DNA of 64,000 nt from Agarophyton chilense (lineage: Eukaryota; Rhodophyta; Florideophyceae; Gracilariales; Gracilariaceae): NCBI GenBank assembly GCA_030374765.1, contig JARGXX010000097.1, forward strand, positions 620,001 through 684,000, in the 5' to 3' direction. Of the stretch, positions 4,735 to 50,272 are shown piece after piece. The notes under the pieces were generated by a model. It worked only from the letters and a program-made list of their open reading frames with translations, was not told where the DNA came from and did not search any database. The translations under genes were made by a program, and so were the position numbers. Each line of letters starts with the position of its first letter. The first letter of the stretch is position 1.

Positions 4735-5649
4735 TGTAGAGCAACGCCCAGTCAGGGGATACTTGAAGATGGAACTCATAGAATGAGGATTGAACCCTCA
4801 GAGGGTTATGATTATGATCCCCTCTAAGGTGTGCTGAGGTGGCACTGTTTTCTGGTTATATTTCGCCTATAAGGGAGAATTCGGATGGCCCATGGTTGGA
4901 TTGGCCCCGTGATACACGTGGCTTAATTTTGGCACCGATTTTCGGATATTTGTTAGAACGTTGGACTTTTGGGCCCTGACAGTTGGATCTCCACGTGTAT
5001 GGCGCTGAGCAGGTGTGCACTACTGTAGAGTTTAGTTAGTGGGCCCTACTTAGGGAGACGAGATCTGACCGTCCGAAGCTCAGAGTAAATGGGAACCAAG
5101 GTTGGTCTTCGATACCTTTAGAGGTTCTTCGTCGCTATCGTTTCGGCCTTACAACCCGGAACGGGCTCTGGTTAGCAACGCCTGCGTAGGGACACGACTC
5201 CACTTGGAGAGTGCCCACGTTTGGGTTCCGTGCAACCACCCCCTTGGGACCGCTCAGACGACCTGCGTGCACGATACCCCATGGGGGTTCTGCTTACTTG
5301 TTGTGTGCTTTTTGTGTTTCCTTTCGCGGACAGGTTTTCGCCCCTGTATTGGGTTTCTTTTGTTGTTTCGCCCCTTTTCTGGTTCTCGGGTCCGGTGCCT
5401 GTTTGTGCCCGACCCTCGCCCCGTTTTTCCTCTTCGCCGGATTTTCCCCCATTCTTTGGGATACCCATACCCATTCCCGATCCAACGGTTTCTACCCCTC
5501 ACCTCCGTCGGTACTGCCGGAATCCCCCGTGGGAGTTACACCCCACACTACGGGTGGAACGGAGGGCTCTGTTTCTGAGTCTGCCTCCCCCAGGGAGCAA
5601 GGCTTCGAACACCTTAAGAGCACTTCCCGTCGCCGGGTTTTGCTCCACA
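4735..5649 (+). repeat. element A left (5') LTR, 915 bp
   Basis: It starts TGTAGAGCAACGCCC and ends TTTTGCTCCACA, giving the canonical TG...CA ends. A near-identical 915-bp copy lies at 15588-16502 and an inverted one at 24187-25101. The start falls exactly where the integrase remnant breaks off. Compared with the other two full copies, this LTR has the most private differences. Confidence 0.95.
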
Positions 5650-5878: not shown

Positions 5879-7909
5879 ATGTCGCCGCCTACCCGTAGTT
5901 CCAGGACTGGATCGAACCGTCAAGCGGATTCAGTGCCCCCGGCCCCGCCTAGGTCGAGGAGCTCAATTCCTGAAGGTCGGAACGATTCCGGTATCGATCC
6001 GGACACCCGGAGAGCACCCTCAGTGGTTTCAGGTCCTCGAGAGGTCGTGGCTGTGGGCCCAGCTCCAGTGGTGGAGACGCCCTCAGCAGCACCCCAAAGT
6101 CGGGCCGACCCTAAATTACAGCGCCTGGAGACTCGAATCGATATCGCCAACGCGGCTCACGTTGAGCTCCTTCAGGAGGTTACTACCCTCCGCCTCAAGG
6201 TGGAGGACGCCCAGGTGCGGGGAGTCGCCGATGACCTTCGTACTCTGAGGAGAGATGTGAACTCCCTTTTGGAAAGCTTTGGTACCCCTGGGGTCTTTAC
6301 CCAGGAGTACCGGAGCCTCGTGGAGGAACACCGCGTGCAAGCGGAACGCTTCCGAGCTCGGCTGGACACCCTCGAGGCCATTATCCATATGGACGGAGAC
6401 ACAGAAGCCTCGAAGGATAAACCCGACGTTTCGGAAGACGAAGAACACCGCTCCGCTAAACGGGACCGCCACAAGTCCAAGAAGAGGGTTCACCTCCAAG
6501 AGGATTTATCGGATTCCGATCCCAATCGCTCGTCATCGAGTTCGTCCTCCAAATCTTCGGATAGTGAAGATGGACGCCGTTCATCCCGGGCGACTCGGTC
6601 GAAGGCTACTTACACCTCTCAAGGGGCAATCCGTACCCGGAAGAAGGGTAGGAAACACCTTGGATTAAGGGAGCTGAAGCCGACGAATCCTCTCTATCGG
6701 AAGCTGCTATCGTACTGCTATTACCGGTTGGATAACCCTTCGGGAGATCGAACATCCCGCGGAACGGGTAAGGTCAAGGACTACATCAAAAGGCTGAGCA
6801 TCACCCTACAGAAGAGGGAGTTCACAGGAACAGACCAAATTCTGGTGCTCGATTTCCTTGCGAGGTTCGTCCAGAAGGCTGACATCCTCGGTATGAGTGA
6901 AGGGCAAGCGTATCTTGCATTACCCTATTTCTTAAAGGGGATGGCTGAAGACCAGTTCAACTCCGTCCGTAGATCATCCCGAGCCTCGGAAGGGGGAGTC
7001 ACGTGCTGGCCCGAAGCGGTGCAGTACCTCTTGAGGTCATACGCTACTGGAACTGCGATTCAGGAAGCAATCCTTGCAGTAAGGGATACGCGGCAGAAGC
7101 CGATGGAAACCGAAACGGTGTATTCAACTCGCTTGAATAAAGCGTTTCACCGATGCGGGAATGTATTCCCCGCCTACGAGAGATGCTCAATGTTTGTGGA
7201 TGGTTTGGACCCCTCGATAAGGGCATTGGTTGCCCGACATCGGGAAGAGAAGTGCAAGCTGACCTACTTGGAACTGGTTCAGTACGCCCAGGCTGAGGGG
7301 GATACTCTCCGTGCCCGGCAGAACCGAAAGAGTCGGCCGACACGTGCACTCCTCGCCGATGGAGGTAACTCGTCTTTGTCATTCGCAGGAGGCCCTGTCC
7401 CTGTGGGGCTCAATGATAACATTCACTTCATGGGAAGTAACCCCGAATCTATGGGTACGTCTGAGTTGCCGTCGACATCTGCTCCGACTACGGATGAAGA
7501 CCCTGCGCTCTATACCCACGGATGGAGGGTGCCAGCCGCATCGCTACCTTTTGCGAATACCGCTGCTCGGTTCTCACGCCCCGGATGGAGGGATACAGCA
7601 CCACGTCGCGTGGATTCACGTCCACAACCGAACCCGGCAGAGCTGATTTGCTATTTGTGTTACCTCCGTGGTCACAAAGCACCAGACTGTACATTTCCCC
7701 TGCGGGAGGGTTCACGAATTATCGCTCAGTACGAGGCTCTGACCCCTGAGGAGAAAGCTCGAGTCCCGAGTAGGTCCTATGAGGAACAAAGGATACTCCG
7801 AGCTCACCTTGCTGACAGGGATACAGAACTTGTACCCGCGAACGGGGAACAACCGGTCCCCTTCGAGGCAGCTGCACCGAATTCGGTGGGGTCCGCTTCG
7901 AAAAACTAA
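5879..7909 (+). CDS. gag: element A Gag polyprotein (676 aa)
   Basis: Structural protein that forms the cytoplasmic virus-like particle and packages element RNA. The first ATG after the PBS at 5879 was chosen. The N-terminus is Pro/Ser-rich. A coiled-coil-like segment covers about residues 80-170, and an acidic, Ser-rich stretch with a run of serines lies around 215-240. A helical capsid-like region of about 270-520 follows. A canonical zinc knuckle CYLCYLRGHKAPDC (CX2CX4HX4C) starts at residue 591, near the C-terminus. The frame is open throughout. The stop at 7907-7909 directly follows AAA AAC, and pol lies in the -1 frame with its open frame overlapping gag by about 90 nt. The decayed homologue in element A' lies at 21594-23959. 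Confidence 0.92.
   Translation: MSPPTRSSRTGSNRQADSVPPAPPRSRSSIPEGRNDSGIDPDTRRAPSVVSGPREVVAVGPAPVVETPSAAPQSRADPKLQRLETRIDIANAAHVELLQEVTTLRLKVEDAQVRGVADDLRTLRRDVNSLLESFGTPGVFTQEYRSLVEEHRVQAERFRARLDTLEAIIHMDGDTEASKDKPDVSEDEEHRSAKRDRHKSKKRVHLQEDLSDSDPNRSSSSSSSKSSDSEDGRRSSRATRSKATYTSQGAIRTRKKGRKHLGLRELKPTNPLYRKLLSYCYYRLDNPSGDRTSRGTGKVKDYIKRLSITLQKREFTGTDQILVLDFLARFVQKADILGMSEGQAYLALPYFLKGMAEDQFNSVRRSSRASEGGVTCWPEAVQYLLRSYATGTAIQEAILAVRDTRQKPMETETVYSTRLNKAFHRCGNVFPAYERCSMFVDGLDPSIRALVARHREEKCKLTYLELVQYAQAEGDTLRARQNRKSRPTRALLADGGNSSLSFAGGPVPVGLNDNIHFMGSNPESMGTSELPSTSAPTTDEDPALYTHGWRVPAASLPFANTAARFSRPGWRDTAPRRVDSRPQPNPAELICYLCYLRGHKAPDCTFPLREGSRIIAQYEALTPEEKARVPSRSYEEQRILRAHLADRDTELVPANGEQPVPFEAAAPNSVGSASKN
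7900..7906 (+). promoter_or_regulatory. candidate -1 ribosomal frameshift site at gag end
   Basis: The last gag codons read TCG AAA AAC TAA. The heptamer G AAA AAC is one base from the canonical A AAA AAC slippery site. Pol is open in the -1 frame from about 7816 and has no ATG at its start. A slip here would add the pol frame right at the gag stop. No downstream stimulatory structure was worked out. Confidence 0.4.
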
Positions 7910-7911
7910 AC

Positions 7912-10900
7912 TTGGGAGTCTCCCCTGCGAGAGGGGCGTCTTCTAAGCCGGAGTTGAAGACGCCCGAGGCGCTCCAGCTTCGCTCCCCAGCTGTGACAAT
8001 CCTTTCAAGGAAAACGGCTGACACCGACGTTAACTCGCGATTCTTTAGTGTCCTCCGTCGCCCGGGGATACGGTCCCGCAATCTCCGTATTCCGGATCGA
8101 GTTATGGTAATGGCCAAGCGGAATTATAAGGTATTCGCCGACTTCGGCCTGTCCAACCAGTTTATGGTTCGTCAAATATCTGTCCTGGATACAGGAGCCG
8201 CTCCTAACTTAATTCAGGTTGAATTATTACCCCCGCTGCTCCGGGTTCAAGTTCGTACCGGTCCACGTTTGGATATCTCCGATGCGAACAACCACCCGCT
8301 ACGGACACTGGGTACAATTTCCCTCAGGGTGAGGTTAGGCTCCTATCTCATTCAGCTAGAGTTTATTGTATGCAAGTCACTTGCAGCACCAGTCATAGTG
8401 GGGTGTGACTTTTGCGACCGCTTCGTGGAATCCATCCGTCCTCGGAATAGAACTGTGGAACTCGAAGACGGGTCTACGATCCCAATCGTTCGTAAACCCT
8501 TACAGGGAGCAGCGCGAACACGCGTTCCTCTCTCTGTCGCGCAGGAAACTGTGAAGAAGGACCCGGTGTCTACACGGGTAAAGGTTGCGAAGTCAGTAGC
8601 TATCCCGCCAGAAACCCATGTTTGCGTCACAGTTGTTACCAAGAAAATTGGTTTGCATGTGGTACAACCGAACCCGTCTCTGTATACGCGGCGTCAACTC
8701 GCCCTTGCGAATGGGGTTGTCTCCGTGGAACCGGATAAACCTTTCAAGGTTTTGGTAGCCAACTTTGGAAAGACAACGCAGCATTTGGTCAAACACCAGA
8801 TCCTGGGTTCTGTTCTTCCACACCCGCATGCGGTCGTACCTACAAAGATCTCTATCGCAGAGGTCCTTGGTGTGGCGGACCCTAAGGAGGGGGAGGACAC
8901 TGCCGAAATCGCGAAAGACGGTGAGCATACGACTGCAGCTCCCCACGCTGAACACTTTAAACCTCAGGAGGTTACGGCCCCTATCACAGGAGCAGACCAG
9001 ACGGATCCTGTTCAGGAATTGGAAAAATGGGATCTCAACCATGTACCCGCATCTCATCGGGAGAAGCTGAGGCACATGCTCCGTGAATTTACCCCCATGT
9101 GGGATGGTTCCCTTGGAACTATTGGGATTACAGAACACCGCATCGACTTGTTACCGAACACTCGGCCTATTGCCCAACACCCTTACAGGGCTGGACCGAA
9201 AGCTCGGGAAGAGGAGAAATCTCAGGTGGAGAAGATGCTTAAAGCGGGCGTAATGGAACGTGCCCAGTCCGCTGGGGCCTCACCAGTGATGTTAGTTCCG
9301 AAACCGGATGGATCGTGGCGTTTCTGCATCGATTACAGACGCCTGAACGAGGTAACCATTAAGGATGTGTACCCGATCCCTCGGATGGACGAATACATCG
9401 ACTCCCTTGGGAGCGCTACTGTTTTCTCTCCCCTCGACGCCAATTCGGGCTACTGGCAAGTCCCTATTAGGGAGGAAGATCGAGACAAAACGACTTTCGT
9501 GTGTCATCAAGGACTTTTCCGATTCTGGAGGATGCCTTTTGGGTTGACAAATGCCCCCGCAACGTTTCAACGGGCGATAGACATTCTGTTGGCTCCCTTC
9601 AAGTGGAGGACGTGTCTAGTGTATTTAGACGACATTATTGTCTTCTCCAACAACCCGGATGACCACCTCGAACACGTCAGGGACGTAATGAAGATCCTCC
9701 GCGACGCGGGAATCACCTTGAAACTCAAGAAGTGCGAGTTTTTCACCGATTCGGTTAAGTACCTGGGTCATATTATCCGTCCCGGACAGCTTTCAATTGA
9801 TGAAGTACGAGTGAAATCCTTGAAGGAAGCAAAACACCCGAAAAATCAAACGGAGTTGCGATCCTTCTTAGGTCTGTGTAACGTGTATCGCCGATTCGTC
9901 CCGAACTTTGCGGATATTGCCACCCCCCTCAACAGGCTCCTGACGAAGGGACAACCAGTTGAACTGGAACCTTTTGGCGAGGCGGAAGCGTCTGCCTTCA
10001 CGGCACTGGTGAATGCCGTATCATCACCGCCAATCTTGGCTCTACCCAATCCTGGGCTCCCTTACGAAGTGGACACCGATGCTAGTGCAAACCAAGTAGG
10101 GTGTGCACTGTTCCAATCCTCTGAGGATGGTGAACGTCACCCTATTGGGTACTGGTCATGTTCCTTGAATGTCCATGAAATGAAATACTCGGTCTCCGAG
10201 AAAGAATGTTTAGCCGTTGTGTGGGCCTTAGCTACACTTCGCCCCTATCTGATGGGTACTCGTTTCAAAGTCCATACGGATCACGCATGCTTGCGTTGGC
10301 TCCTGGAGATCTTCGAACCCTCGGGCCGCCTTATGCGCTAGCGTCTCCGACTGTCGGAATTCGACTTTGAGATCCTGTACAAGAAAGGTAAGCTGAACAC
10401 TCAGGCTGATGCACTATCCCGCTTGGGAACCACAGCGGAAACGAAACCCTACGAGGACGATGACATCCCATGTTTTATGGTATCGGACCTCGAGGGAGGA
10501 GCTCAACCGCTGACGGATGATGTTTGTGACGATATACTCGTCAACGAGAGTCTAGATTCGCCGACCGGCTCTTTTATACCTATCTCTTCAGAGGAGATGA
10601 TACGCAAGCAACAGCTCGACCCATTCTGTACACGGATTCGGGCTCGCCTCAACGGAGGATTTCAGTTACCTTTCGAGGACGACGATCAGGGTTACCTAAT
10701 GAGGACCGTTGGACCTCGCCCAAGGATAGTGGTGCCGCACACCCTACAACAGAGGGTATTACACCTCACTCACTATGTGAAGGTTGGCGCCCACCCCGGG
10801 GGAAGAAAACTGTACCTCACGTTGAGAAGGGACTTTTACTGGCCGGCAATGGCATTCGATTGTTACGCCGTCAGACGGGCCTGCGCCAGTTGCGCCAAGA

Positions 10901-12444
10901 ATGACGTCAAACTTCGGAAGCACTCTAAGAAGTTGACGCTGTTCCCGGCACGGGCGCCACTCGAATTCGTGGCCATAGACATCCTAGGGGAGTTTATCAG
11001 GACGCTCCGAGGTCATCGGTATCTGCTTGTCATTTCTGACAGATTCTCTAAGCTAACGAGAACTGTGCCGCTGAAGCGGATCACTGCCGCTACCGTCGCG
11101 CAAGAATTCGTGACTCACTGGGTGTTCGTATATGGACCGCCGGTGCAGTTTTTATCCGACAACGGAGGGCAATTCGCATCAAAGTTCTTTCACGATGTAT
11201 GTCGAATCCTTGATGTAAGGAATTTATTTGTTACTAGGCATCACCCTCAGGGGAATGGCCAGGTGGAGAGGTTTAACCGCACGATACTCAACGCTTTGAG
11301 ATCGTATGTTGCGGATCACCCCAAAAATTGGGACTTGTACACAGACGTTATCACGTATGCATACAACACCCAGGTACATCGGGTTACATCGTTGTCCCCA
11401 TTCGAACTGGTACTGTCAAGGACACCGCCGCCGGTCGCCATCGAGGCTCAACCGACGCTGTCGACGTACCCGTCACCGGGATTGTACCGAGAAGCCTGGA
11501 AGGAGTGGCTTACGAAGATGGTGCCGATAGCCCGGAAAGCAATGAAAAAAGCTCAACGCGCCTACAAGAAGGACTTTGACAATCGGGTTCGCAAACCTCT
11601 ACCTCAGGTGGAGCCCGACGACTTCGTCTTCCTTCGAAAGGAATACTACAATCCTGAAAAGGAACGTAGACACAAGCTTTCGCCAATTGTGGACGGACCC
11701 TATCGTCTGGTTTCTGTGGAACCGGACACGGTGGTATTGGATATCGCAAACCGCCACGAACGGATCTCCAGGGACCGCATCACACGAGCGCCCAACCCAA
11801 ATGTGGAAGTGGTGTCGGCACCAACGCCCTCCACAGGGAATGATTCAACGGAAGTTAACCCGTCAGGCGGAGATTCAAACACCCGCCCCGTTATACTTCC
11901 GCACCCGGAACGTGGTTTAACCGACCTACCGGAAACTTCGGATACTCCCGAACCTGGGCCCGCTCCCTCAAGGGCCCAATCAACGAACTCTTACAGAGTT
12001 ACTCCCCCACCGGAGGTAATCAAGCCTCCTGGCTCTCCGCCTAAGGAGGGGGAGGAGGACTTAGTTCCTTCGCAGGACGATGTTTCGGCGTCAGCCAGTC
12101 GCCCTAACAGGGAATCTAGTTCTCACAGTGAGACGGCGAGCCCGACCGAGCCGGCGACAGAGAAGTCACAACCCCAGCATATGGGTAGCGACATCACCGC
12201 CAACCCAGCCGAGCACGACGTCAGAAAAGATGACGAAAACCAGCCTAGGGAGAGTTGTGTGGAGAACTCCGCACCCGGAACGCCTACAGAGCCGACGATC
12301 ACCCGCCGCCGCGGACGACACACTGAGGTGTCGCACACTCAAACCCCGCTTTCTCGGGAACGAGCTGTGTCAGCGGACCCGCACGGGGAAGATCTCGACG
12401 ACGAGGTTGACCAAATTTGGCTCTCCGTTATGGAATGGGAATAG
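7912..12444 (+). pseudogene. pol: element A Pol (PR-RT-RNase H-integrase) with one in-frame TAG
   Basis: A single frame encodes protease (LDTGAAPNLI, Asp codon at 8188), RT with FCIDYRRLN and the YLDDIIVFS catalytic box at 9622-9633, and RNase H (DTDAS near 10075, TDHACLRW near 10280). Integrase follows with an HX..C..C zinc finger near 10770-10900 and a D,D35E core: IDILGEF, FLSDNGGQF, HHPQGNGQVERFN. A long Pro/Ser/Glu-rich tail ends at 12444. The only break is TAG at 10339-10341 between RNase H and integrase. Element B has Trp at the matching place (RLARWRLRL), so TGG to TAG is the simplest origin. The frame starts before 7912 (open from 7816) and probably depends on -1 frameshifting. Confidence 0.9.
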
Positions 12445-13020
12445 GAACTCCTATGGAGACACTGGAACCCTCAGGAATGGGAAAGAAATGAGTGAGACCC
12501 GTCAGGGACTGCTCAGGAGAGTGCTAGCGCGTGTCGAAAGCGCCACCTCACATCCGCATAGGCAGATTTTCCCGCACAAGGAACGGTCACCCCACACAGG
12601 GCGCCCGTGCCTTTGTGTGGCACACGTCGAATGGCACCGAGCCAATCAGAAAACTCTGACGACCAACCGTCGCGCAAACCGCCTCCGTCGCACGGCGCGC
12701 TGCACGGGAGCAACCTTCGTCCCCGTAGCTCGGGTTGACGTTGAAGTCGTACCCCCCTGAGATTGGAGACGCTACTGCGTCGCGGTTTCTCAACCGTCAC
12801 GGGATCTAAGAACACCGTTGTTATCGGGAAGATCTCACCTTTAAGAAGAATCCAAAAGTGGGCCGTTTTAACTCCGTAGACGGAAGTTACAACGTAGCCC
12901 GCAGGCCACTCGGCGCCGTTTGGACGAAGTGCTGAGACCCGCTCGCAACACGGAGAAGAACCCACCGGGGTGGGTCTAAACTCTACGTTGACACCCTCAA
13001 GGGAACTAGAGCGTTCCAAG
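12445..13020 (+). other. interval between pol stop and chromodomain ORF
   Basis: The pol frame meets stops at 12442 (TAG) and within 50 bases after it, then resumes an open frame carrying the chromodomain. In another frame an Arg-rich open frame runs 12080-12760, overlapping the pol tail; it is also open in element A' (19907-20611, minus). No splice signals were established. The interval may hold an intron, or the chromodomain may be made as a separate product. Confidence 0.4.
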
Positions 13021-13260
13021 ATGGAAGAGAAGCCCGAACAGGGAAAAGTGTACCCGCAGGAATTCGTTATCGATCGCATCGTGCGTCACATCTACACTCC
13101 CGAGGGAGAAGTCCGCTACCAAGTCCGATGGTACGGATTCTCGCCTGATGAGGATACAGTGGAACCCATTGAGCACCTTCCGAGGTCTAAGGTTTTATCC
13201 TATCACCGACGCGCTCGGGTAACCTTGCCTCCAAGTCTGGATCGTGCCCAAGTCGGGTAA
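13021..13260 (+). CDS. element A stand-alone chromodomain ORF (79 aa)
   Basis: It starts at ATG 13021; the frame is open from 12970 with no earlier ATG. The product matches a chromodomain: YPQEFVIDRIVRH ... YQVRWYGFSPDEDTVEP, with the aromatic residues expected for binding methylated histone tails. In chromoviruses this domain normally forms the C-terminus of integrase and steers insertion toward heterochromatin; here it is in the pol frame but separated from pol by about 0.5 kb with stops. In element B the chromodomain is fused to integrase in the usual way. Element A' keeps a same-length copy at 19408-19647 with Trp changed to a stop. Whether it is translated alone, by splicing, or not at all is unknown. 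Confidence 0.75.
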   Translation: MEEKPEQGKVYPQEFVIDRIVRHIYTPEGEVRYQVRWYGFSPDEDTVEPIEHLPRSKVLSYHRRARVTLPPSLDRAQVG

Positions 13261-13649: not shown

Positions 13650-15377
13650 CTAAGGAAAGCCCGAGGAGGGACTCGCCCCACCGTTGGGATTCTGACCCTG
13701 ATGGTACGCCGAGGCGAAAGCCAACATCTGGCTCACATCCGTCATACCCGGGGGAATCGGAATGCCTGCGTTCACGAGGCCTTGTCGCACACTATCCACT
13801 TGCGGAGTGGCAACCGGCGTCTGCGCAAGTGTGTTCACACCCCACCCGGGGGGAGCAGATGGACCGCCACCGGATGCATTCGCCGCCGCAGCTGAGGTCG
13901 TTCCCACTGGTTGGAAGGGTGCAGATGGCTCCACAGGGAGTACTCCACTAGGAGATGGCACGTCGTTATCCAACGCTCGATCGTCCAGGTCTACTGGAGG
14001 CTCGTACTCGTAATCGTCGGTATAAATGAACCCCGTCGGGTGTCCCACCGGCATCGGTCGAGGCCAGTCAATCAGCGCCCGTGCTTGCGCCGCGCTGATG
14101 CGAACCCCTTCGAAGGGATTGTAATAGACCCAGTTACCGGAGCCCAGATCGTACCGGCCAGGAGACTTGTCTCGCGCGGATCCTTCCCCTGCGGGCTGAT
14201 TTGCCACTGGAACTCGATCCCATTGGGTGTTGTCGATCATGTCCGAGATTGGATACAGGTCCTGCACGTTGCTGGCCGAACCCAACGCTGGGACAAGGTC
14301 GATCTGACGCATGATAGTCCGTAGCATCGGAGGAATATACCAGATACGGAAATGGTCATGAGCATCCCAGAGGAGGTGCGCCACTACGCGAACTGCCCAC
14401 TCGGCTGCAACGAGGGCCCAGTATCCCAAGTTCGGGTCGTGCATCAAACGAGACCCGATATAGTAGAGGCATGGGGGCAGTTCAGCAAAGCACCCTCGGG
14501 GGACCTCGACCTTACTCCACGAAGCTGGAAGGGGCACGAATCGCCCAACCTTCGCCGTGTTACGGATACGCTCCAGTTCCACGTTAGGATACGGGACAAG
14601 GAACCCGAAACGGGAGCGCGAGCAGCGCTCGAAGCGCACGCGTCGATCGAACCCATACTGGGTAAACTGCCGTTGAAGGTACCTGAATTCAGCCCGAAGG
14701 ATGGGACGACTCCATTGGAGCATATCTTCTCGGAGAGGAAAACCCGGTCCGCGGAACTCGGCTTCGGGAAAGGCTGCCAGGTTATCCCCGTAGGAGACCT
14801 CACCGTACGTGCGGTAATAGGCGACATCGAACCCGTACTCCGGGGGAACCAGATGGTCAAACCGTGACCTCTCCAATCGCTGGTAGGCCAGAGCCGCCAT
14901 CGCTGCGTGCGCCTTGTCCAGGGACTCCCCGCGACCGCGGTATAGATACTGAGGCTCTATGGCTACCCGCGCCCTCCAATCGGGAGAACGTACAACCTCG
15001 ACAGGTAGGCCACCCGGCAATAAGCCGTCCTCCACGTAGGAGTCGATGAGCTCATCGTCGCGAACCGCTGTCGGATGGAACCACGGGGCGCGGGAATATA
15101 TCACCGGATCGGTAAGGGGACTCCACCTTCGAAAGGATTCGTTTGAGATCCAACCTCTGGAGTTTGCTACCAATGGCATCGCATGAGCGGGGTTCCACGC
15201 CACCGCGTTAATGTCCAAATCCTCCTGAGGATGTCGGTTGACCGCCGAGGCGGAAGGTTCGGTACCTGACGGAGCCGCATCCAAACCGGAGAAATATCCA
15301 CCCTGCTGGGGAGCTTTGTTGTCCGCCGGCGCGGAGGCCGATGGCCCCGAGAGTGGGTTGATGACGTATGGGTTCAT
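13650..15377 (-). CDS. element A antisense ORF, 575-aa protein of unknown function
   Basis: A long, uninterrupted ORF on the strand opposite to gag-pol, starting 210 bp inside the 3' LTR and running toward pol. It has no transmembrane segment or signal peptide, so it is not an Env. The first 60 residues are Pro/Ala/Ser-rich; the middle (about 80-460) is rich in Trp, Tyr and Arg; the tail is Gly/Pro-rich. Colinear with the element B antisense protein (51577-54063): W287 then PP at 301, YY at 305-306, EWAV at 326-329, and AR at 432 followed 17 residues later by GF at 449. Element A' keeps only the last ~40 residues (18884-19008). I do not recognise the family. Function unknown; antisense extra ORFs occur in some plant Ty3 elements. 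Confidence 0.8.
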   Translation of the reverse strand: MNPYVINPLSGPSASAPADNKAPQQGGYFSGLDAAPSGTEPSASAVNRHPQEDLDINAVAWNPAHAMPLVANSRGWISNESFRRWSPLTDPVIYSRAPWFHPTAVRDDELIDSYVEDGLLPGGLPVEVVRSPDWRARVAIEPQYLYRGRGESLDKAHAAMAALAYQRLERSRFDHLVPPEYGFDVAYYRTYGEVSYGDNLAAFPEAEFRGPGFPLREDMLQWSRPILRAEFRYLQRQFTQYGFDRRVRFERCSRSRFGFLVPYPNVELERIRNTAKVGRFVPLPASWSKVEVPRGCFAELPPCLYYIGSRLMHDPNLGYWALVAAEWAVRVVAHLLWDAHDHFRIWYIPPMLRTIMRQIDLVPALGSASNVQDLYPISDMIDNTQWDRVPVANQPAGEGSARDKSPGRYDLGSGNWVYYNPFEGVRISAAQARALIDWPRPMPVGHPTGFIYTDDYEYEPPVDLDDRALDNDVPSPSGVLPVEPSAPFQPVGTTSAAAANASGGGPSAPPGWGVNTLAQTPVATPQVDSVRQGLVNAGIPIPPGMTDVSQMLAFASAYHQGQNPNGGASPSSGFP

Positions 15378-15573
15378 TCCCTTGAGAGGGCTGGTCGAGA
15401 CCGCTGTTGCGAGAAGTTGCTTATCGCCGAAAGTTGGAGGAGTAGAAGAAAGTTGTACCGATGTGCCGGTTTTGTGGCGATCCTAAGAAGCGGTGAAGGA
15501 CCCCATTGGGAAAGAAGTATGTATAGTGATCGGAAAGCTAGACACCCGCTGCTCGGAATGTTCTTCCTCGTGT

Positions 15574-15587
15574 TAAGGAGGGGGAGA
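15574..15587 (+). promoter_or_regulatory. polypurine tract of element A
   Basis: The run TAAGGAGGGGGAGA directly abuts the 3' LTR start TGTAGAGC at 15588, the standard site for plus-strand DNA priming. The inverted copy at 18801-18814 abuts the truncated LTR of element A' in the same way. Confidence 0.9.
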
Positions 15588-16502
15588 TGTAGAGCAACGC
15601 CCAGTTAGGGGATACTTGAAGATGCAACTCATAGAATGAGGATTGAACCCTCCGAGGGTTATGATTATGATCCCCTCTAAGGTGTGCTGAGGTGGCACTG
15701 TTTTCTGGTTATATTTCGCCTATAAGGGAAAATTCGGATGGCCCATGGTTGGATTGGCCCCGTGATACACGTGGCTTAATTTTGGCACCGATTTTCGGAT
15801 ATTTGTTAGAACGTTGGACTTTTGGGCCCTGACAGTTGGATCTCCATGTGTATGGCCCTGAGCAGGTGTGCACTACTGTAGAGTTTAGTTAGTGGGCCCT
15901 ACTTAGGGAGACGAGATCTGACCGTCCGAAGCTCAGAGTAAATGGTAACCAAGGTTGGTCTTCGGTACCTTTAGAGGTTCTTCGTCGCCATCGTTTCGGC
16001 CTTACAACCCGGAACGGGCTCTGGTTAGCAACGCCTGCGTAGGGACACGACTCCACTTGGAGAGTGCCCACTTTTGGGTTCCGTGCAACCACCCCCTTGG
16101 GACCGCTCAGACGACCTGCGTGCACGATACCCCGTGGGGGTTCTGCTTACTTGTTGCGTGCTTTTTGTGTTTCCTTTCGAGGACAGGTTTTCGCCCCTGT
16201 ATTGGGTTTCTTTTGTTGTTTCGCCCCTTTTCTGGTTCTCGGGTCCGGTGCCTGTTAGTGCCCGACCCTCGCCCCGTTTTTCCTCTTCGCTGGATTTTCC
16301 CCCATTCTTTGGGATACCCATACCCATTCCCGAACCAACGGTTTCTACCCCTCACCTCCGTCAGTACTGCCGGAATCCCCCGTGGGAGTTACACCCCACA
16401 CTACGGGTGGAACGGAGGGCTCTGTCTCTGAGTCTGCCTCCCCCAGGGAGCAAGGCTTCAAACACCTTGAAAGCACTTCCCGTCGCCGGGTTTTGCTCCA
16501 CA
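15588..16502 (+). repeat. element A right (3') LTR, 915 bp
   Basis: Same length and ends as 4735-5649. The base-level variants (for example CAGTTAGGGG, CCTCCGAGGG and CTTTCGAGGAC) are mostly shared with the inverted LTR at 24187-25101 and not with 4735-5649. The flanking CGATC (16503-16507) matches the duplication next to 25101, marking these two LTRs as partners of one insertion. Confidence 0.95.
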
Positions 16503-17124: not shown

Positions 17125-17144
17125 GGGCAGTTTGCACTGTAAAG

Positions 17145-17301
17145 TGTAGATCTGCCCCCCTTCCTTTTCGGGAGGCACTGCTGCCGTCGCTCGTTTATTT
17201 GTACCCGGAAACGGGTCTCTGTGTCGACCCGCTACTGTAAAGTGGCCCTGTGATTGGCACTGATATTTGCACCCAGTGTGAGCGTGTCACATTGTGTCAC
17301 A
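17145..17301 (-). repeat. shortened copia 3' LTR
   Basis: It runs TGTAGATCTGCC to TGTCACA in plus-strand reading and matches both ends of the 391-bp LTR at 49321-49711, but lacks about 230 bp of its middle. It lies next to the purine-rich strand GAGGGATG, a probable polypurine tract. Boundaries rest on the comparison of only two copies. Confidence 0.5.
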
Positions 17302-17739
17302 TCATCCCTCGAAGAGATCGTTGATGTTATGAATTCTCTTTGCATCACCTTCGAGAAAGTACATTGATTAGTCTAGCTCATCACCCGTGCACACAGGAGT
17401 TTGTTTTCAGAAACATGAGCAATTCCGACAAGACAGATAGCTAATCTCAATAAACGTAACAGCGGCTTAGGAATAGAGAAATACAAAGACGTTTGCTACC
17501 GTTAAAAACCCTAAATATAAGTCAAAACCACGTTGGAGATAGAATTTTACAAAAGGAAAAGGTATAGCCTCACCTACAGTACCAAACCATATGAACTTGT
17601 AATATAATAAGATAGAAACTCGAAAAGCGCATATCAGAAACGAAAAATGGAAAACATAGTAAGCATAAGAAAAGATAGTTAACGTCAGCGATCGAAGCAC
17701 TACATCAAGATTCCAAACAAAAAAAGAAGCTTTTGTAAG

Positions 17740-18666
17740 TCTGGGTACGACAATTACTTAGTCAACAAGTGAGCGGGTTGCCGAGAGTATTCTACTTGTA
17801 TGAGTTCAACAACTCTAGAATCAACGAGATCCTTCACATGGTGGAATCGAATAGAAATAGGCTATTTCCTATCCGTGAGCTTTTCTTTCGTTCTTTACCA
17901 TGGATCCCGTGGCTGATCTATCAGTAGGCATCTTCATCTGATACAGTTCTGGTTTCGAGCTTAAGTTCTCATTATGAACAAGCTCCCAGAACACTCTGCG
18001 AGTTCAGACAACGTTCCGTCCACTCTGTGAAAGATCGATTTACTCAGCCTCTCCAGACGAGAGTTCAATGATACTCTGTTTCTTTGAACTCCATATAATC
18101 AGAGCCTTGTTCATCTGCACCAAATACCCTGTCGTAGACGTTTTAGTCTCTTTCCACTCAGCCCAGTGGGAATCGCAAAAAGTTTACAGGGGCTCCTTGC
18201 TCATCGACGTAAATGCGAGTCGATAATGTTTCGTTCCTAGTAAATACTGAAACATTCGCTTCTGGAGCATCAAGTGTCGTTGGGTGGGCTACTGAACTTG
18301 GCTTGATAGATTTGAAGCGGCGTAGGATATGTCAGGGCGGGTGCATACCGCTGTGTACATGATGTATCCGACGTGAGAGCGTTGTAAGTTGTGATCTCTC
18401 CGACAAGGTACGGGTTCATCCTTGTACCTTTTCCTAAAGCCATAAGTTGTAGGTAGTGTAGTATGGACTGACTTCTTGTGTTGCAGTCCGTGTTCCGTAG
18501 CAATTCTTTCGATGTACTTGGATTCATCCAAAAATATTACGTTCCTTAAACGAGTAATACTCCAACCAATGAAGAGTATTGCAGGTCCATGGCGCTTGAC
18601 ATCGAACGTTGACATCATTTGTTCCTTTAATTCAGCATAAAGAGACTTTGCAGACGAACCAAACAT
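17740..18666 (-). pseudogene. copia pol fragment (RT C-terminus to RNase H end)
   Basis: The upstream end encodes MFGSSAKSLYAELKEQMMS, the segment directly after the copia YVDD box, then FDVK..., KYIERIA and CTRPDISYAASNLS, all standard copia RT/connection motifs. The downstream end matches the RNase H terminus (HHVKDLVDS..., ADLLTKSF) seen intact in the second copy. Frames change several times. The RT catalytic box itself is missing, because the fragment begins just past it at 18666. Confidence 0.8.
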
Positions 18667-18800
18667 AGGCGAACTCTAACCAGAAAACCGTGCCACCTCA
18701 GCACACTTTAGAGAGGATCATAGTTATAACCCTCGGAGGGTTCAACCCTCATTCTATGAGTTGCATCTTCAAGTATCCCCTAACTGGGCGTTGCTCTACA
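18667..18800 (-). repeat. truncated 3' LTR of element A'
   Basis: The first ~134 bases of an element A LTR in minus orientation (LTR start at 18800, GCTCTACA in plus reading). It is broken at 18667 and fused to copia RT sequence. A polypurine tract (reverse complement at 18801-18814) abuts it. Confidence 0.9.
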
Positions 18801-18883
18801 TCTCCCCCTCCTTAAGACGAGGAAGAACATTCCGAGCCGCGGGTGTCTCGCTTTCCGGTCACTATATATACTTCTCTCCCAAT

Positions 18884-19008
18884 GGTACGCGGGCATTCCG
18901 ATTCCCCCGGGTATGACGGATGTGAGCCAGATGTTGGCTTTCGCCTCGGCGTACCATCAGGGTCAGAATCTCAACGGTGGGGCGGGTCCCTCCTTGGGCT
19001 TTCCGTAG
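18884..19008 (+). pseudogene. remnant of antisense ORF in element A'
   Basis: The last ~40 codons (GIPIPPGMTDVSQMLAFASA ... GFP stop) match the C-terminus of the element A antisense protein. Everything from its start codon to this point is deleted; the sequence just upstream (18855-18883, with a TATATATA run) corresponds to element A at about 15500-15530. The deletion therefore joins the antisense promoter-side sequence to the C-terminal stub. Confidence 0.85.
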
Positions 19009-19407
19009 TTCCGCCTTCGGGCAATTGTGGAGTCCATAGCTTGGCGACAATAGTAAACTTCTGATATTTGCATAACTTCTTTTCTTCTTCCTTCCTAGGA
19101 TCTTAACTTCTACTTCTTTTCTTCTTCCCTCTTAGGATCTTCATCATCTTCGTCTTCAACTTCTTCCCTTCCTAGGGTCTAATCTTCTTCTTAATCTTAT
19201 TCTCCACTTCGTGGGTCTTCTTTTCCTTTTTCATTATAAACTGTCCCGATAACCGGTGTTGTGTTCCCCGGTTAACGGCGCTAGGCCGAGGGCCAGTAGG
19301 CATTCCCTCTCAATACGTGTTCTTCGGGATACTCTCCTCAATTCCTATTCAGAGGTCCAACATCTTCCTCAATTCGAGGTCGCATCCACACCAGTTCCCG
19401 TGGTGGC

Positions 19408-19647
19408 TCACCCGACTTGGGCACGATCCAAATTTGGAGGCAAGGTTACCCGAGCGCGTCGGTGATAGGATAAAACCTTAGACCTCGGAAGGTGCTCAAT
19501 GGGTTCCACTGTATCCTCATCAGGCGAGAATCCGTATCATCGGACTTGGTAGCGAACTTCTCCCTCGGGGGTGTAGATGTGACGCACGATGCGATCGATA
19601 ACGAATTCCTGCGGGTACACTTTTCCCTGTTCGGGCTTCTCTTCCAT
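19408..19647 (-). pseudogene. chromodomain ORF remnant in element A'
   Basis: Same 240-nt length as the element A ORF at 13021-13260, with ATG at 19647 and TGA at 19408-19410. The Trp codon in the QVRWYGF core is a stop (TGA), truncating the domain. Confidence 0.75.
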
Positions 19648-19985
19648 CTTGGAACGCTCTAGTTCCCTTGAGGGTGTCAACGTAGGATCTAGACACACCC
19701 GGTGGGTTCTTTTCCGTGTTGCGAGCGGGTCTCAGCACTTCGTCTAAACGGCACCGAGTGGCCTGTGGGCTACGTTGTAACTTCCGTCTACGGAGTCAAA
19801 ACGGCTCAGTTTTGAGTTCTTCTTAAAGCTGAGATCTTCCCGATAACAACAGTGTTCTTAGATTCCGTGACGGTTGAGAAGCTGCGACGCGGTAGCGTCT
19901 CCAATCTCAGGGGGGTAAGACTTCAACGTCAACCCGAGCTACGGGGACGAAGGTTGCTCTTGTGCAACGCGCCGTGTGATGGAGG

Positions 19986-20084
19986 CGGTTTGCGCGACGG
20001 TTGGTCGTCAGAGCCTTTTGATTGGCTCGGTGAGGCGGTTTGTGCGACGGTTGGTCTTCAGAGCGTTTTGATTGGCTCGGTGCC
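19986..20084. repeat. tandem duplication of ~50 bp in element A'
   Basis: The block GGCGGTTTGYGCGACGGTTG...GATTGGCTCGGTG occurs twice in a row with a few differences. Element A has it once (about 12645-12695, reverse strand). It lies in the interval between pol and the chromodomain. Confidence 0.7.
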
Positions 20085-20246
20085 ATTCGACGTGTGCCAC
20101 ATAAATGCGCGGGCGCCGGTTGCCACTCCGCAAGCGGATGTGAGGTGGCTCTTCCGACACGCGCTAGCACTCTCCTGAGCTGTCCCCGACGGGTCTCACT
20201 CATTTCTTTCCCACTCCTGAGGGTTCCAGTGTCTCCATAGGAGTTT

Positions 20247-21593
20247 CTATTCCCATTCCATAACGGAGAGCCCAATTTGGTCAACCTCGTCGTCGAGATC
20301 TTCCCCGTGTGGGTCCGCTGACACAGCTCGTTCCCGATAAAGCGGGGTTTGAGTGTGCGACACCTCAGTGTCTCGTCCGCGGCGGCGGGTGATCGTCGGC
20401 TCTGTAGGCGTTCCGGGTGCGGAGTTCTCCACAGGACTCTCCCTAGGCGGGGTTTCGTTATCTTTTCTGACGTCGTGCTCGGCTGGGTCGGCGGTAATGT
20501 CGCTACCCATACGCTGGGGTTGTGACTTCTCTGTCGCCGGCTCGGTCGGGCTCGCTGTCTCACTGTGAGAACTAGATTCCCTGTTAGGGCGACTGGCTGA
20601 CGCCGAAACATCGTCCTGCGAAGGAACTAAGTCCTCCTCCCCCTCCTTAGGCGGAGAGCCAGGAGGCTTGATTACCTCCGGTGGGGGAGTAACTCTGTAA
20701 GAGTTCGTTGACTGGGCCCTTGAGGGAGCGGGCCCAGGTTCGGGAGTATCCGAAGTTTCCGGTAGGTCGGTTAAACCACGTTCCGGGTGCGGAAGTATAA
20801 CGGGGCGGGTGTTTGAATCTCCGCCTGACGGGTTAACTTCCGTTGAATCATTCCCTGTGGAGGGCGTTGGTGCCGACACCACTTCCACATTTGGGTTGGG
20901 CGCTCGTGTGATGCGGTCCCTGGAGATCCGTTCGTGGCGGTTAGCGATATCCAATACCACCGTGTCCGGGTCAACAGAAACCACACGATAGGGTCCGTCC
21001 ACAATTGGGGAAAGCTTGTGCCTACGTTCCTTTTCAGGATTGTAGTATTCCTTTCGAAGGAAGACGAAGTCGTCGGGCTCCACCTGAGGTAGAGGTTTGC
21101 GAACCCGATTGTCAAAGTCCTTCTTGTAGGCGCGTACAAGTTCTGTATCCCTGTCAGCAAGGTGAGCTCGGAGTATCCTTTGTTCTTCATAGGACCTACT
21201 CGGGACTCGAGCTTTCTCCTCAAGGGTCAGAGCCTCGTACTGAGCGATAATTCGTGAGCCCTCCCGCAGGGGAAAAGTGCAGTCTGGTGCTTTGTGACCA
21301 CGGAGGTAACACAAATAGCAAATCAGCTCTGCCGGGTTCGGTTGTGGACGTGAATCCACGCGACGTGGTGCTGTACCCCTCCATCCGGGGTGAGAGAACC
21401 GAGAAGCGGTATTCGCAAAAGGTAGCGATGCGGCTGGCACCCTCCGTGCGTGGGTATAGAGCGCAGGGTCTTCATCCGTAGTCGGAGCGGATGTCGACGG
21501 CAACTCAGACGTACCCATAGATTCGGGGTTGCTTCCCATGAATTGAATGTTATCATTGACCCCCACAGGGGCAGGGCCTCCTGCGAGTGACAA
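20247..21593 (-). pseudogene. in-frame fusion of Gag C-terminus to integrase tail (448 aa)
   Basis: Residues 1 to about 150 are the Gag C-terminal region including the CYLCYLRGHKAPDC knuckle up to ADRDTELV. The chain then passes directly into RAYKKDFDNRV, the integrase C-terminal (GPY/F) region, and runs to the pol end SVMEWE. Compared with element A the deletion removes about 3.7 kb between positions equivalent to 7838 and 11558, with a 2-bp AC microhomology. Although gag and pol are in different frames in element A, the deletion happens to put them in one frame. No enzyme activity can remain. Confidence 0.8.
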
Positions 21594-23959
21594 AGACGAG
21601 TTACCTCCATTGGCGAGGAGTGCACGTGTCGGCCGACTCTTTCGGTTCTGCCGGGCACGGAGAGTATCCCCCTCAGCCTGGGCGTACTAAACCAGTTCCA
21701 AGTAGGTCAGCTTGCGCTTCTCTTCCCAATGTCGGGCAACCAATGCCCTTATCGAGGGGTCCAAACCATCCACAAACATGGAACATCTCTCGTAGGCGGG
21801 GAATACGTTCCCGCATCGGTGAAACGCTTTATTCAAGCGAGTTGAATACACCGTTTCGGTTTCCATCGGCTTCTGCCGCGTATCCCTTAATGCAAGGATT
21901 GCTTCCTGAATCGCATTTCCAGTAGCGTATGACCTCAAGAGGTACTGCACCGCTTCGGGCCAGCACGTGACTCCCCCTTCCGAGGCTCGGGATGATCCAC
22001 GGACGGAGTTGAACTGGTCTTCAGCCATCCCCTTTAAGAAATAGGGTAATGCAAGATACGCTTGCGCTTCACTCATACCGAGGATGTCAGCCTCCTGGAC
22101 GAACCTCGCAAGGAAATAGAGCACCAGAATTTGGTCTGTTCCTGTGAACTCTCTCTTCTGTAGGTGAAGAGCAACGTCCTCCAGGGAGGTTTCTCGGGAC
22201 TTAAGTTTTTTCCGGAGCCTCCGGCGTGCAACCTCGTTATGAGTAGGAGTAATCCGTTTTCACGGCGATGGCCGGAACGCCGGTGATGCACCGGCGGGAC
22301 CGGGTGCCATACACGTGGCCGCAGCGCCCACGCGACACGTGGCCGCCAGATTGGCCCTTTTGTTAGACGGACATTTAGCTATTTAGGATAGACTTTATTT
22401 ATTCTATTCTACGGTGACTACAGTACTTAGGCCGCCGGCCTCGCGGCCGCCGGTCCAGTAAAGTCTCCCGAACAAGGGTGATCTTGGTCTTCCAGATGTT
22501 GGCTCTGGGTCGAACCGCCTGCGCGGATATACAACTCCTTACGGAGGGATTTCTCGTGGTGCACGGCTTCCCAACCCCCTTGGACGTTCAAGCAGCCTTC
22601 GTGTGTTGGGTATCTATTCCCACTTTCGTGGTTCCGCCCGTGTATACGGTTTTCTACACCCGGCAGTGCCGGTTATTCCCGAGTCTCCTCTTGCGACTCG
22701 TGGTCATCCTCGCCCTCTTGCCTCCGTTCCCATTTTCCTTCCCTTTTCCTCCCCTTCATTGGGCAATTCCCGCTCTTGCGGCTCGCACTGACACCTGTCG
22801 TGCTCGCCACTCTCGTGGGTTTTGCCTCCTCAGAGGATACGCAAGCACCGCTTCGGCGGATATTCTCGGCTTCTTTCAGCCTCCTTGCGCCCGTCGCGAC
22901 GGTTCGGCTCCGACTTACACCCGGCATTGCGCGCCGATCCCTAGGAGGGCACTACCGCGCCGGTTACCTCGTGAGAGGAAGATCCGGACGTCTTTGTAGG
23001 TTTTCCCCCTTGGGGGCATTGTCCTACAGTAGGGTGATGCTCAGCCTTTTGATGTAGTCCTTGACCTTACCCGTTCCGCGGGATGTTCGATCTCCCGAAG
23101 GGTTATCCAACCGGTAATAGCGGTACGAGAGCAGCTTCCGATAGAGAGGATTCGTCGGCTTCAGCTCCCTTAATCCAAGGTGTTTCCTACCCTTCTTCCG
23201 GGTACGGATTGCCCCTTGAGAGGTGTAAGTAGCCTTCGACCGAGTCGCCCGGGATGACCAGCGTCCATCTTCACTATCCGAAGATTCGGAGGACGAACTC
23301 GATGACGAGCGATTGGGATCGGAATCCGATAAATCCTCTTGGAGGTGAACCCTCTTCTTGGACTTGCGGCGGTCTCGTTTAGCGGAGCGGTGTTCTTCGT
23401 CTTCCGAAACGTCGGGTTTATCCTTTGAGGCTTCTGTGTCTCCGTCCATACGGATAATGGCCTCGAGGGTGTCCAGCCGAGCTCGGAAGCGTTCCGCTTG
23501 CACGCGGTGTTCCTCCACGAGGCTCCGGTACTCCTGGATAAAGACCCCAGGGGTACCAAAGCTTTCCAAAACGGAGTTCACATCCCTCCTCAGGGTACGA
23601 AGGTCATCGGCGACTCCCTGCACCTGGGCGTCCTCCACCTTGAGGCGGAGGGTAGTAACCTCCTAAAGGAGCTCGACGTGAGCCGCGTTGGCGATATCGA
23701 TTCGAGTCTCCAGGCGCTGTAATTCAGGGTCGGCCCGACTTCGGGGTGCTGCTGAGGGGGTCTCCACCACTGGAGCTGGGCCCACAGCCACGACCTCTCG
23801 AGGACCTGAAACCACTGAGGGTGCTCTCCGAGTGTCCGGATCGATACCGGAATCGTTCCGATCTTCGGGAATTGAGTTCCTCGACCTAGGCGGGGCCGGG
23901 GGCACTGAATCCGCTTGACGGTTCGATCCAGTCCTGGAACCACGGGTAATCGGCGACAT
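21594..23959 (-). pseudogene. gag: element A' gag, broken
   Basis: Homologous to element A gag from its ATG at 23959 (MSPITRGSRTGSN). Two CAG to TAG changes are seen: one at 23663-23665 in the coiled coil (ELL*EVTTL) and one at 21687-21689 (LELV*YAQ). A solo LTR with its 5-bp duplication interrupts it at 22165-23028, in the codons for SITLQKREF. The capsid region on either side is otherwise well preserved. Confidence 0.85.
22165..23028 (+). repeat. solo LTR (864 bp) nested in element A' gag, TSD GTAGG
   Basis: An insertion bounded by GTAGG at 22160-22164 and 23029-23033. It starts TGAAGAGCAACG and ends CCTACA, and is absent from element A gag at the same codons (about 6806). The start resembles the element A LTR start (TGTAGAGCAACG), so it comes from a related family in plus orientation. 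No internal region is left, so it arose by LTR-LTR recombination. Confidence 0.9.
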
Positions 23960-24166
23960 GCTGCAGACACGATACCGACGATTTGGGGTAACGATGAAAT
24001 TCGATCACGAGATTCCCGGAGAACGGATGACGTAACACAAAACAAAAATAAAAACCAATTCCACCCTTTCCAAAGGGGACCACTACAACAAATCTTCACG
24101 ACGGTGCTTCCTCTTCCAAGAGATATTCCAACACGTGAATGACCAACCCAAAAGTCCGAGAACGGA

Positions 24167-24184
24167 TTCTAAGTCGGGAGACCA
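24167..24184 (-). promoter_or_regulatory. primer binding site of element A'
   Basis: The reverse complement reads TGGTCTCCCGACTTAGAA, identical to element A at 5652-5669, two bases inside the 5' LTR. Confidence 0.75.
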
Positions 24185-24186
24185 CT

Positions 24187-25101
24187 TGTGGAGCAAAACC
24201 CGGCGACGGGAAGTGCTCTCAAGGTGTTCGAAGCCTTGCTCCCTGGGGGAGGCAGACTCAGAGACAGAGCCCTCCGTTCCACCCGTAGTGTGGGGTGTAA
24301 CTCCCACGGGGGATTCCGGCAGTACCGACGGAGGTGAGGGGTAGAAACCGTTGGTTCGGGAATGGGTATGGGTATCCCAAAGAATGGGGGAAAATCCGGC
24401 GAAGAGGAAAAACGGGGCGAGGGTCGGGCACAAACAGGCACCGGACCCGAGAACCAGAAAAGGGTCGAAACAACAAAAGAAACCCAATACAGGGGCGAAA
24501 ACCTGTCCTCGAAAGGAAACACAAAAAGCACGCAACAAGTAAGCAGAACCCCCACGGGGTATCGTGCACGCAGGTCGTCTGAGCGGTCCCAAGGGGGTGG
24601 TTGCACGGAACCCAAACGTGGGCACTCTCCAAGTGAAGTCGTGTCCCTACGCAGGCGTTGCTAACCAGAGCCCGTTCCGGGTTGTAATGCCGAAACGATG
24701 GCGACGAAGATCCTCTAAAGGTATCGAAGACCAACCTTGGTTACCATTTACTCTGAGCTTCGGACTGTCAGATCTCATCTCTTTAAGTAGGGCCCACTAA
24801 CTAAACTCTACAGTAGTGCACACCTGCTCAGGGCCATACACGTGGAGATCCAACTGTCAGGGCCCAAAAGTCCAACGTTCTAACAAATATTCGAAAATCG
24901 GTGCCAAAATTAAGCCACGTGTATCACGGGGCCAATCCAACCATGGGCCATCCGAATTTTCCCTTATAGGCGAACTCTAACCAGAAAACAGTGCCACCTC
25001 AGCACACCTTAGAGGGGATCATAATCATAACCCTCGGAGGGTTCAATCCTCATTCTATGAGTTGCATCTTCAAGTATCCCCTAACTGGGCGTTGCTCTAC
25101 A
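24187..25101 (-). repeat. element A' 5' LTR, 915 bp
   Basis: Full-length inverted copy of the 915-bp LTR. The outer flank GATCG (25102-25106) is the complement of CGATC found after the LTR at 16502, identifying the two as the ends of a single insertion into the pogo-like transposase gene. Confidence 0.95.
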
Positions 25102-26095
25102 GATCGAAGCAGTTCTTTATGGTAGAGGCCGGTAGAACATCCCACTCCTCTCCAATCTAACGCATTGCTGCTAATATGTCGACATTGTAAATTGATTTCG
25201 GTCCTGTATCGATATTGTCAAACACTCTGAACAGTAATCGACGGCGGTATTCTGCTTTCAATGAAGCAATAATTCCTGCATCAAGCGGGTTTCCGCGCCT
25301 AGTTTTGTTCGGAGGAAGGAACTTCATATTCACGTTCCGCATTTCAGAAAGCACTTCTGCACCCAAATGAGCTTAGCAGTTATCGAGAAACAACAGAATT
25401 TTGCGCCCTACAGTCCTTCCGATATACACATAAAGTCCCTTAAGCCAAGCGAAGAACAAAACTTGCGTCATCCAAGCCTTTCTGTTGGCATGGTAGTCAA
25501 ATCCATGCTCGCGACCTGACTTTTTTCCAAATGCGCAGGGCTTCAACGCGCGACCGAAAACCATAAGAGGGTATTTTTCAGTGCCGTCCACATTACAACA
25601 GGCCATAATTTTGAGCCCCATTTTATCCTTCTTGAAGCCTGACGTCGTCTCGCTTGAAAGCGACCATCTACGCGGTTGTCTGTAGAAAAGGCCAAACTCA
25701 TCCGCATTCCAGACATCGGATGGGCTGTACGTGGAGATTATTTCTCATATAGTCGAAAGGGCAGCAGCCAAGCTGTTGTTTTCTGCATTCTAATATTTTC
25801 CGTGTATGGGGCGAGGTCGAAGGTTGCAGCGCTTCTGGAACCGGTTCATCCAACTATGGGAAGGTTTTAAAGACAGAGGTTCATGTGACGGAAGATGTTA
25901 GTTCGTCTTACTATGTAGTCTCTCGGCGTTATGCCAAACAATCGGTCCATTGAGTTGTACTCCATGAGCGTTTTTATCAAAGATCTTAGTGTACAACGCT
26001 GCTCCAAGACGTAAAGCAGCAGGGACACGATTCTTTTTAAAAGAAACGAACACCGTGTTTATGAATGGTTGGAGTGAGGCAGCGGAGGACAAAAT
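25102..26095 (-). pseudogene. pogo/Tigger-like (DDE_1) transposase, N-terminal and catalytic part
   Basis: Cut-and-paste transposase of the CENP-B/Tigger/pogo type. Motifs seen in order on the minus strand: an HTH-like stretch (26092-25898, VFVSFKKNRV...), VWNADEFGLFYRQP (first catalytic Asp) near 25700, IMACCNVDGTEKYPL near 25600, HANRKAWMTQVLF near 25480, and ILLFLDNC (second Asp) near 25380. These are followed by PPNKTRRGNPLDAGII (third Asp) near 25280. An in-frame TAA right after the DNC box and further frame changes make it a pseudogene. The frame then runs to WDVLPASTIKNCF and is cut at the LTR; its continuation is at 16503. Confidence 0.82.
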
Positions 26096-50149: not shown

Positions 50150-50272
50150 TTAGCTTTGGTACGAAAATGATTTCGTCAACAGATCTGCAGGTTGCCGAGA
50201 GGATTCTATTTCAATGCGTTCAACAACTCCAGAATCAACAAGATCCTTCACATGGTGGAACCGAATAGAGAT

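Follow-up and report, generated by a model that had tools for sequence, protein, structure and literature searches.

Genes on the antisense strand are known from the 3' end of several retroelements. In the HTLV group, HBZ and related antisense genes are regulatory, with transcription that starts in the 3' LTR or close to it. Among Ty3 elements, such genes have so far been recorded piecemeal in plants and in one fungal group; the plant elements Grande and RIRE2 belong to the Tat lineage. For maize Grande, a promoter upstream of the antisense gene gene23 and a nuclear product have been reported (PMC7264820). In flowering plants, Retand elements, a non-chromovirus lineage, carry a conserved antisense ORF (aORF; Transposase_28, PF04195) between pol and the 3' LTR in nearly all clusters studied, with a suspected regulatory role and an origin given there as unknown (PMC11963269). 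The fungal case is brtn, an antisense gene in the Ty3 element Boty of Botrytis and Sclerotinia (PMC7264820; PMC8365987). The sections of two articles that review Ty3 antisense genes give none of them a shown function (PMC11963269, PMC7264820). The arrangement as such is already known from Grande, RIRE2, Retand, and Boty; our searches of an open-access library turned up no description of a red-algal antisense retroelement gene.

Here, we analyzed two LTR retrotransposons, elements A and B, in a window of 64,000 nucleotides from the red alga Agarophyton chilense (contig JARGXX010000097.1, positions 620,001 to 684,000; all coordinates below are those of the window). Gag-pol lies on the plus strand in A and on the minus strand in B, and each element carries a long ORF on the opposite strand, between its chromodomain and its 3' LTR. 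An initial annotation of the window had proposed this arrangement, and both ORFs, of 575 and 828 aa, were indeed found at the coordinates given below; their antisense placement is borne out by the LTRs and the Pfam domains. Element A and its surroundings comprise the following features.

4735-5649, plus strand: 5' LTR, 915 bp, 97.7% identical to 15588-16502
5879-7909, plus strand: gag ORF, 676 aa, from the ORF list, similar to gag of B
7912-10341, plus strand: pol, RT and RNase H part (Pfam RVT_1, 1.1e-38; RT_RNaseH, 1.1e-28)
10342-12444, plus strand: pol, integrase part (Pfam Integrase_H2C2 and rve)
12898-13257, plus strand: chromodomain frame (Pfam Chromo, 2.9e-8), with ~450 nt containing stops between it and the pol ORF
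13650-15377, minus strand: antisense ORF A, 575 aa (ORF list; genome copies)
14208-14834, minus strand: core of ORF A, residues 182-390, aligning with ORF B (hhalign)
15518-15525, minus strand: TATA-like TATACATA, a weak candidate for an antisense promoter (consensus match), 148 nt 5' of the ORF A start
15575-15587, plus strand: polypurine tract, a purine run up to the 3' LTR
15588-16502, plus strand: 3' LTR, 97.7% identical to 4735-5649
18887-19120, plus strand: remnant of an antisense ORF end (profile match 18889-19002) in a third copy of element A

A PBS-like stretch, TGGTCTCCCGACTTAGAA, lies directly 3' of the 5' LTR; gag of element A had no match in Pfam. All eight family A copies examined have a similar end point of the pol frame (mostly in ...VMEWE) and, 430-530 nt 3' of it, a chromodomain in an open frame of its own, which is in the register of pol in three copies and in a different register in five. 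Because the split (12442-12897 in element A) is common to all eight copies, decay was ruled out as its origin; perhaps an intron lies here, or the chromodomain is expressed separately. No target duplication is visible at the flanks of element A, and the third copy (18665-25102), inverted and internally deleted, lies 2 kb away, the two forming inverted repeats. Thus, recombination between them is possible. Elsewhere in the window, we noted by eye an apparent Copia-type RT fragment at 18292-18675 and, at 25376-25744, a fragment with a resemblance to a pogo/Tigger-type DDE transposase. The ORF at 30411-32447 matches Beta_propel strongly (PF09826, 7.9e-123) and is probably a host gene.

Element B reads in the other direction, with the following features.

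50616-50620 and 62265-62269, no strand: 5-bp target-site duplication AGTCG flanking element B (direct repeat)
50621-51183, minus strand: 3' LTR, 563 bp, 97.5% identical to 61702-62264
51465-51472, plus strand: TATA-like TATTTAAG, candidate antisense promoter (consensus match), 112 nt 5' of the ORF B start
51577-54063, plus strand: antisense ORF B, 828 aa (ORF list; genome copies)
52201-52914, plus strand: core of ORF B, residues 209-446, aligning with ORF A (hhalign)
55143-56132, minus strand: pol end with chromodomain at about 55161-55313 (Pfam Chromo, 1.1e-6)
56133-57854, minus strand: pol, RT, RNase H, and integrase part (Pfam)
57855-59258, minus strand: pol, RT start (Pfam RVT_1, 1.9e-6), with a weak protease match below the cut-off (Pfam RVP, 0.049)
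59351-61627, minus strand: gag ORF (ORF list; similarity to gag of A)
61702-62264, minus strand: 5' LTR, 97.5% identical to 50621-51183

The element is nested in a repeat copy (49313-50274 and 62268-63021), a relative of which occupies 17135-18666. With LTRs, PBS, PPT, RT, RNase H, integrase, and chromodomain found, A and B are Ty3-type LTR retrotransposons with a chromodomain. Their sense strand is backed in both cases by the purine run 5' of the 3' LTR and by a PBS-like stretch, common to both elements, 3' of the 5' LTR, with further support in B from the AGTCG duplication. A chromodomain alone is no proof of membership in the chromovirus clade, because chromodomain elements of Ectocarpus are placed outside it (PMC12477816). 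The initial annotation had regarded both elements as decayed. The pol frames of the window do contain stops, but the LTR identities of 97.7% and 97.5% indicate that the copies are young.

At the local base composition, open runs as long as ORF A and ORF B have chance probabilities of 1e-8 and 9e-12, respectively. The two proteins align in BLASTP with an E value of 2e-6 (24% identity over 91 aa). A profile alignment with hhalign, in which profile A1 (five sequences) was compared with profile A2 (five sequences, including two family C proteins), was significant, with a probability of 98% and an E value of 1.8e-13 over 202 columns. The A-type profile alone picked up ORF B at 1.7e-11, and the B-type profile (A2) picked up ORF A at 9.8e-5, both in a small search space. 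Judged by this profile-profile similarity, ORF A and ORF B represent one protein family, as had been proposed, and the family matches no curated one: the antisense proteins had no match in NCBIfam, and a Pfam search with 10 proteins at E values up to 10 gave two single-member matches (0.15 and 0.32), none of note. The residue spacings on which the proposal had been built are correct for W to PP (14 in both), the YY just after, and W to EWAV (39 versus 41), all of which fall inside the significant alignment. For the AR pair followed by GF 17 residues later, only the count held. The two places are non-equivalent in the hhalign alignment (the pair follows W386 in A and precedes W442 in B), which rules out a homologous spacing and makes it a coincidence. 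The gag proteins, described earlier as clearly different, do show a relationship, with 34.8% identity over 233 aa, and the pol proteins are homologous (39-55% identity). Of the genes compared between A and B, the antisense gene has therefore diverged most.

Protein searches, each of which scored ~8,000 candidates with words in common with the query, yielded four A-type relatives (P0003-P0006; 36-47% in local alignments) and two B-type relatives (P0009 and P0010); a search with the joint profile returned the same four A-type proteins and nothing further. There was no named fungal match among the six. The two named ones (BWQ96_10156 and BWQ96_10536) are from Gracilariopsis chorda, with both types represented and each known from protein sequence alone. 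They serve as a warning that such proteins may be entered in genome annotations as 'hypothetical proteins' of the host. No relatives were found in viral contigs or in bacterial and archaeal genome contigs. A conserved core shared by five A-type proteins (R..GE, RPILRAEFRY, and EVPRG followed by PP and Y) offers a handle for experiments.

For the family A ORF, the 79.8-Mb genome holds at least 76 close copies, 42 of the 76 listed being without stops; full-length copies of family B number at least 10. Family C comprises at least 65 copies; 64 of them, besides the query, are 71-84% identical to the query, and 63 of the 65 contain stops. In two family C loci (L039 and L040), the ORF faces the pol end from the opposite strand, and Pfam found a chromodomain in L040 and not in L039. 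In L061 (family D) and L063 (family E), antisense remnants of the protein family follow pol and are on the strand opposite to it, whereas no recognisable homologue was present in L062 (family F) or in L064, a family E locus with 88% identity to L063. The same interval of L062 (2749-3720) holds a 324-codon antisense ORF for which no similarity to the antisense family was found. In all, at least five of the six pol families examined (A-E) have a related antisense gene next to pol. When the 56 and 65 listed antisense places were merged, 100 remained. A scored pol was no more than 9 kb away at 30 of these places, and all 30 showed the antisense gene and pol in opposite, tail-to-tail orientation; the other 70 had no scored pol nearby among the best 76 pol matches and are uninformative on orientation. 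A, B, and their relatives belong to the aORF-3R class, with a long conserved antisense ORF between pol and the 3' LTR, the 3' LTR having been located in A and B only. Integrase regions of A are 33-47% identical to those of the other families. Thus, the antisense gene must date back to the split of these families or earlier, unless it was exchanged between elements.

The initial annotation had inferred selection from frames kept open in decayed elements. Since the copies are young, and since neither the singletons of family A nor the differences among B copies depart much from neutrality, open frames are ruled out as proof of selection; purifying selection itself, however, is evident from older divergence. 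In family A, dN/dS was 0.495 among eight copies, compared with 0.63-1.15 in the other five frames, and 0.55 among 28 of the at least 76 copies. Singletons in the 28 copies were near neutral (252 nonsynonymous, 121 synonymous, and 10 stops; 258, 109, and 17 expected), and variants present in more than one copy showed a weak depletion (N:S of 41:29 versus 46:21 expected; Fisher P 0.17, for which, here and below, sites are taken as independent and the relatedness of copies is ignored). Within B, the value for 10 copies (0.755) carried no signal when compared to the other frames (0.74-0.88). We conclude that recent copies drift after insertion.

Among 20 of the at least 65 family C copies, picked for equal length, N:S fell from 998:317 (3.15) in singletons to 408:308 (1.32) for variants in two or more copies and 70:130 (0.54) for those in four or more, the last class differing from singletons with an odds ratio of 0.17 (P 3e-29). 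The other frames gave N/S ratios in the four-or-more class of 5.0-5.2 (forward 1 and 2) and 3.7, 0.80, and 6.6 (reverse). A second comparison, between B and the B' lineage (seven loci), yielded dN/dS values of 0.227-0.430 for the antisense gene in 14 of 15 segments; the fifteenth (L027, 1.02) is actually a B copy. The forward control frames were at 0.99-1.67, and pol was at 0.21-0.27 in all four copies. The antisense protein is thus almost as constrained as pol. Reverse frame -1, which has third positions in common with the gene, was also low (0.29-0.45 for B/B', 0.80 for family C), with 20-23 stops in ORF A and 10-14 in ORF B. The antisense protein has evolved under purifying selection, visible in the shared family C variants, between B and B', and in the conservation of the A-type proteins. 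Taken together, we regard it as almost certain that a group of chromodomain-bearing Ty3 elements in this genome carries a conserved protein-coding gene on the antisense strand between pol/chromodomain and the 3' LTR.

In all seven B' loci examined (L022-L026, L030, and L032), a frame-shifting deletion of 745 nt removes the core, taking out the DNA for about residues 301-545. The junction is single and common to the seven loci, at a CCGGTGT direct repeat. The B' lineage has multiplied to at least seven copies without a full antisense protein of its own, which implies that the protein acts in trans or is dispensable there. B' elements evidently do without it in cis, or altogether. The reading that we favor, and that we consider fairly likely as a whole, is that of an ancestral antisense gene with its own promoter, encoding a non-enzymatic, trans-acting accessory protein with a regulatory role. 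The gene would have been present already in the common ancestor of the pol families that carry it. It would be transcribed towards pol, either from a promoter in the stretch of 200-400 nt that separates its start codon from the 3' LTR or from the LTR, and the product would act in trans on the RNA or chromatin of the element, affecting transcription, RNA fate, or escape from silencing.

The TATA-like site of B also occurs in L024, one B' copy that was examined, and in family C, one of two copies has such a site (at -99, consensus match) and the other does not. From these matches, an internal antisense promoter would be plausible only. In L040, an upstream stretch looked like a tRNA by eye, but ARAGORN in its bacterial setting did not recognize one.

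Instead of serving its element, the antisense protein may limit it, with copy number controlled via interference with Gag assembly or silencing of the sense RNA and with selection acting through host survival. Pairing of antisense with sense transcripts can produce double-stranded RNA, as a review argues (PMC7264820), and the multiplication of B' elements without the core to at least seven copies is what an escape would allow. Nevertheless, B' is not more numerous than B among the matches listed (seven B' loci and 10 full-length B copies), and the gene-bearing families A and C reach at least 76 and at least 65 copies. We consider self-limitation unlikely.

The protein itself gives few hints of its function. 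A sequence search of the PDB produced one chance-level match (E 0.057). Two AlphaFold2 models were poor (mean pLDDT 56 and 40), and a fold search with the first of these against PDB, BFVD, and VIA-align revealed nothing usable. No hydrophobic stretch is common to the 10 proteins; the maximum 19-residue hydropathy ranges from 0.91 to 1.85 at differing places. An Env-like aORF was ruled out, because the gene is antisense and lacks a family-wide membrane segment. Several members have basic or RGG-like tails (P0002 and P0006-P0010), which are absent from ORF A, an acidic protein, so that binding of nucleic acids is weakly supported. A minor part in the structure or assembly of the element's particles, or a role as a substitute for Env, would suit the interval from pol to the 3' LTR, which is the Env position, and a large protein with a conserved core. 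Given the reversed orientation, the missing membrane segment, and the missing match of the poor model to any known fold, we judge this explanation improbable. That the product is a trans-acting regulatory or nucleic-acid-binding protein is the least certain step of the reading we favor and falls just short of an even call.

Silent-site divergence between B and B' is higher in the antisense gene (dS 0.28-0.57; L022-L037) than in pol (0.14-0.23; L085-L088), perhaps as a result of recombination between B and B' elements. This difference speaks for a rival reading, in which a host gene was captured in reverse by one element and then spread among families by recombination. The six relatives, however, found among ~8,000 scored candidates per search, include no named host gene of known function, and we deem capture decidedly improbable. 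Inheritance of the antisense gene together with pol, instead of capture or exchange, is very probable. Finally, the notion that no protein is made and that some other constraint, such as a sense product, RNA structure, or base composition, keeps the frame open would fit the little or no constraint in recent A and B copies but is scarcely credible, as open reading and low N:S are combined in the antisense frame alone, no sense ORF of more than 200 aa overlaps ORF A, and dozens of residues are invariant in A-type proteins that are only 33-50% identical to ORF A.

How, then, does the antisense gene compare with the known systems? It shares with Retand a conserved antisense ORF between pol and the 3' LTR of a Ty3 element. 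Retand differs in being a non-chromovirus lineage of flowering plants, and a relation to Transposase_28 was ruled out, since PF04195 matched none of the 10 proteins at E values up to 10; a genome-wide PF04195 search gave no match anywhere, controls included, and is thus uninformative. Grande gene23 and the RIRE2 aORF, compared by description only, are likewise antisense and at the same position. The initial annotation knew of no precedent in chromoviruses of this kind, a statement that needs limiting in view of antisense brtn in fungal Boty (PMC7264820), which by its description is also an antisense gene of a Ty3 element in a non-plant host. As far as our literature searches show, the protein family and its red-algal chromodomain host lineage appear to be new. 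With the family present in several pol families and its constraint not far from that of pol, the arrangement is no plant oddity. A tentative suggestion, to which we would give somewhat less than even weight, is that the gene was present in the ancestor of the sampled red-algal chromodomain Ty3 lineages and has since been kept by selection, that family F lost it or let it diverge beyond recognition, and that plants, fungi, and red algae use unrelated proteins in the same slot. If this is true, the reversed slot at the 3' LTR was filled independently in the three groups. In the reading favored above, the role would be comparable to that suspected for the Grande and Retand antisense products and known for the HTLV group, where HBZ is likewise an antisense gene at a retroelement 3' end; we claim no relation to it, and no Pfam domain was found in the proteins described here. 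Independent acquisition in the three groups would suggest a general principle, in which a reversed gene provides Ty3 elements with a separately timed regulator, as in deltaretroviruses.
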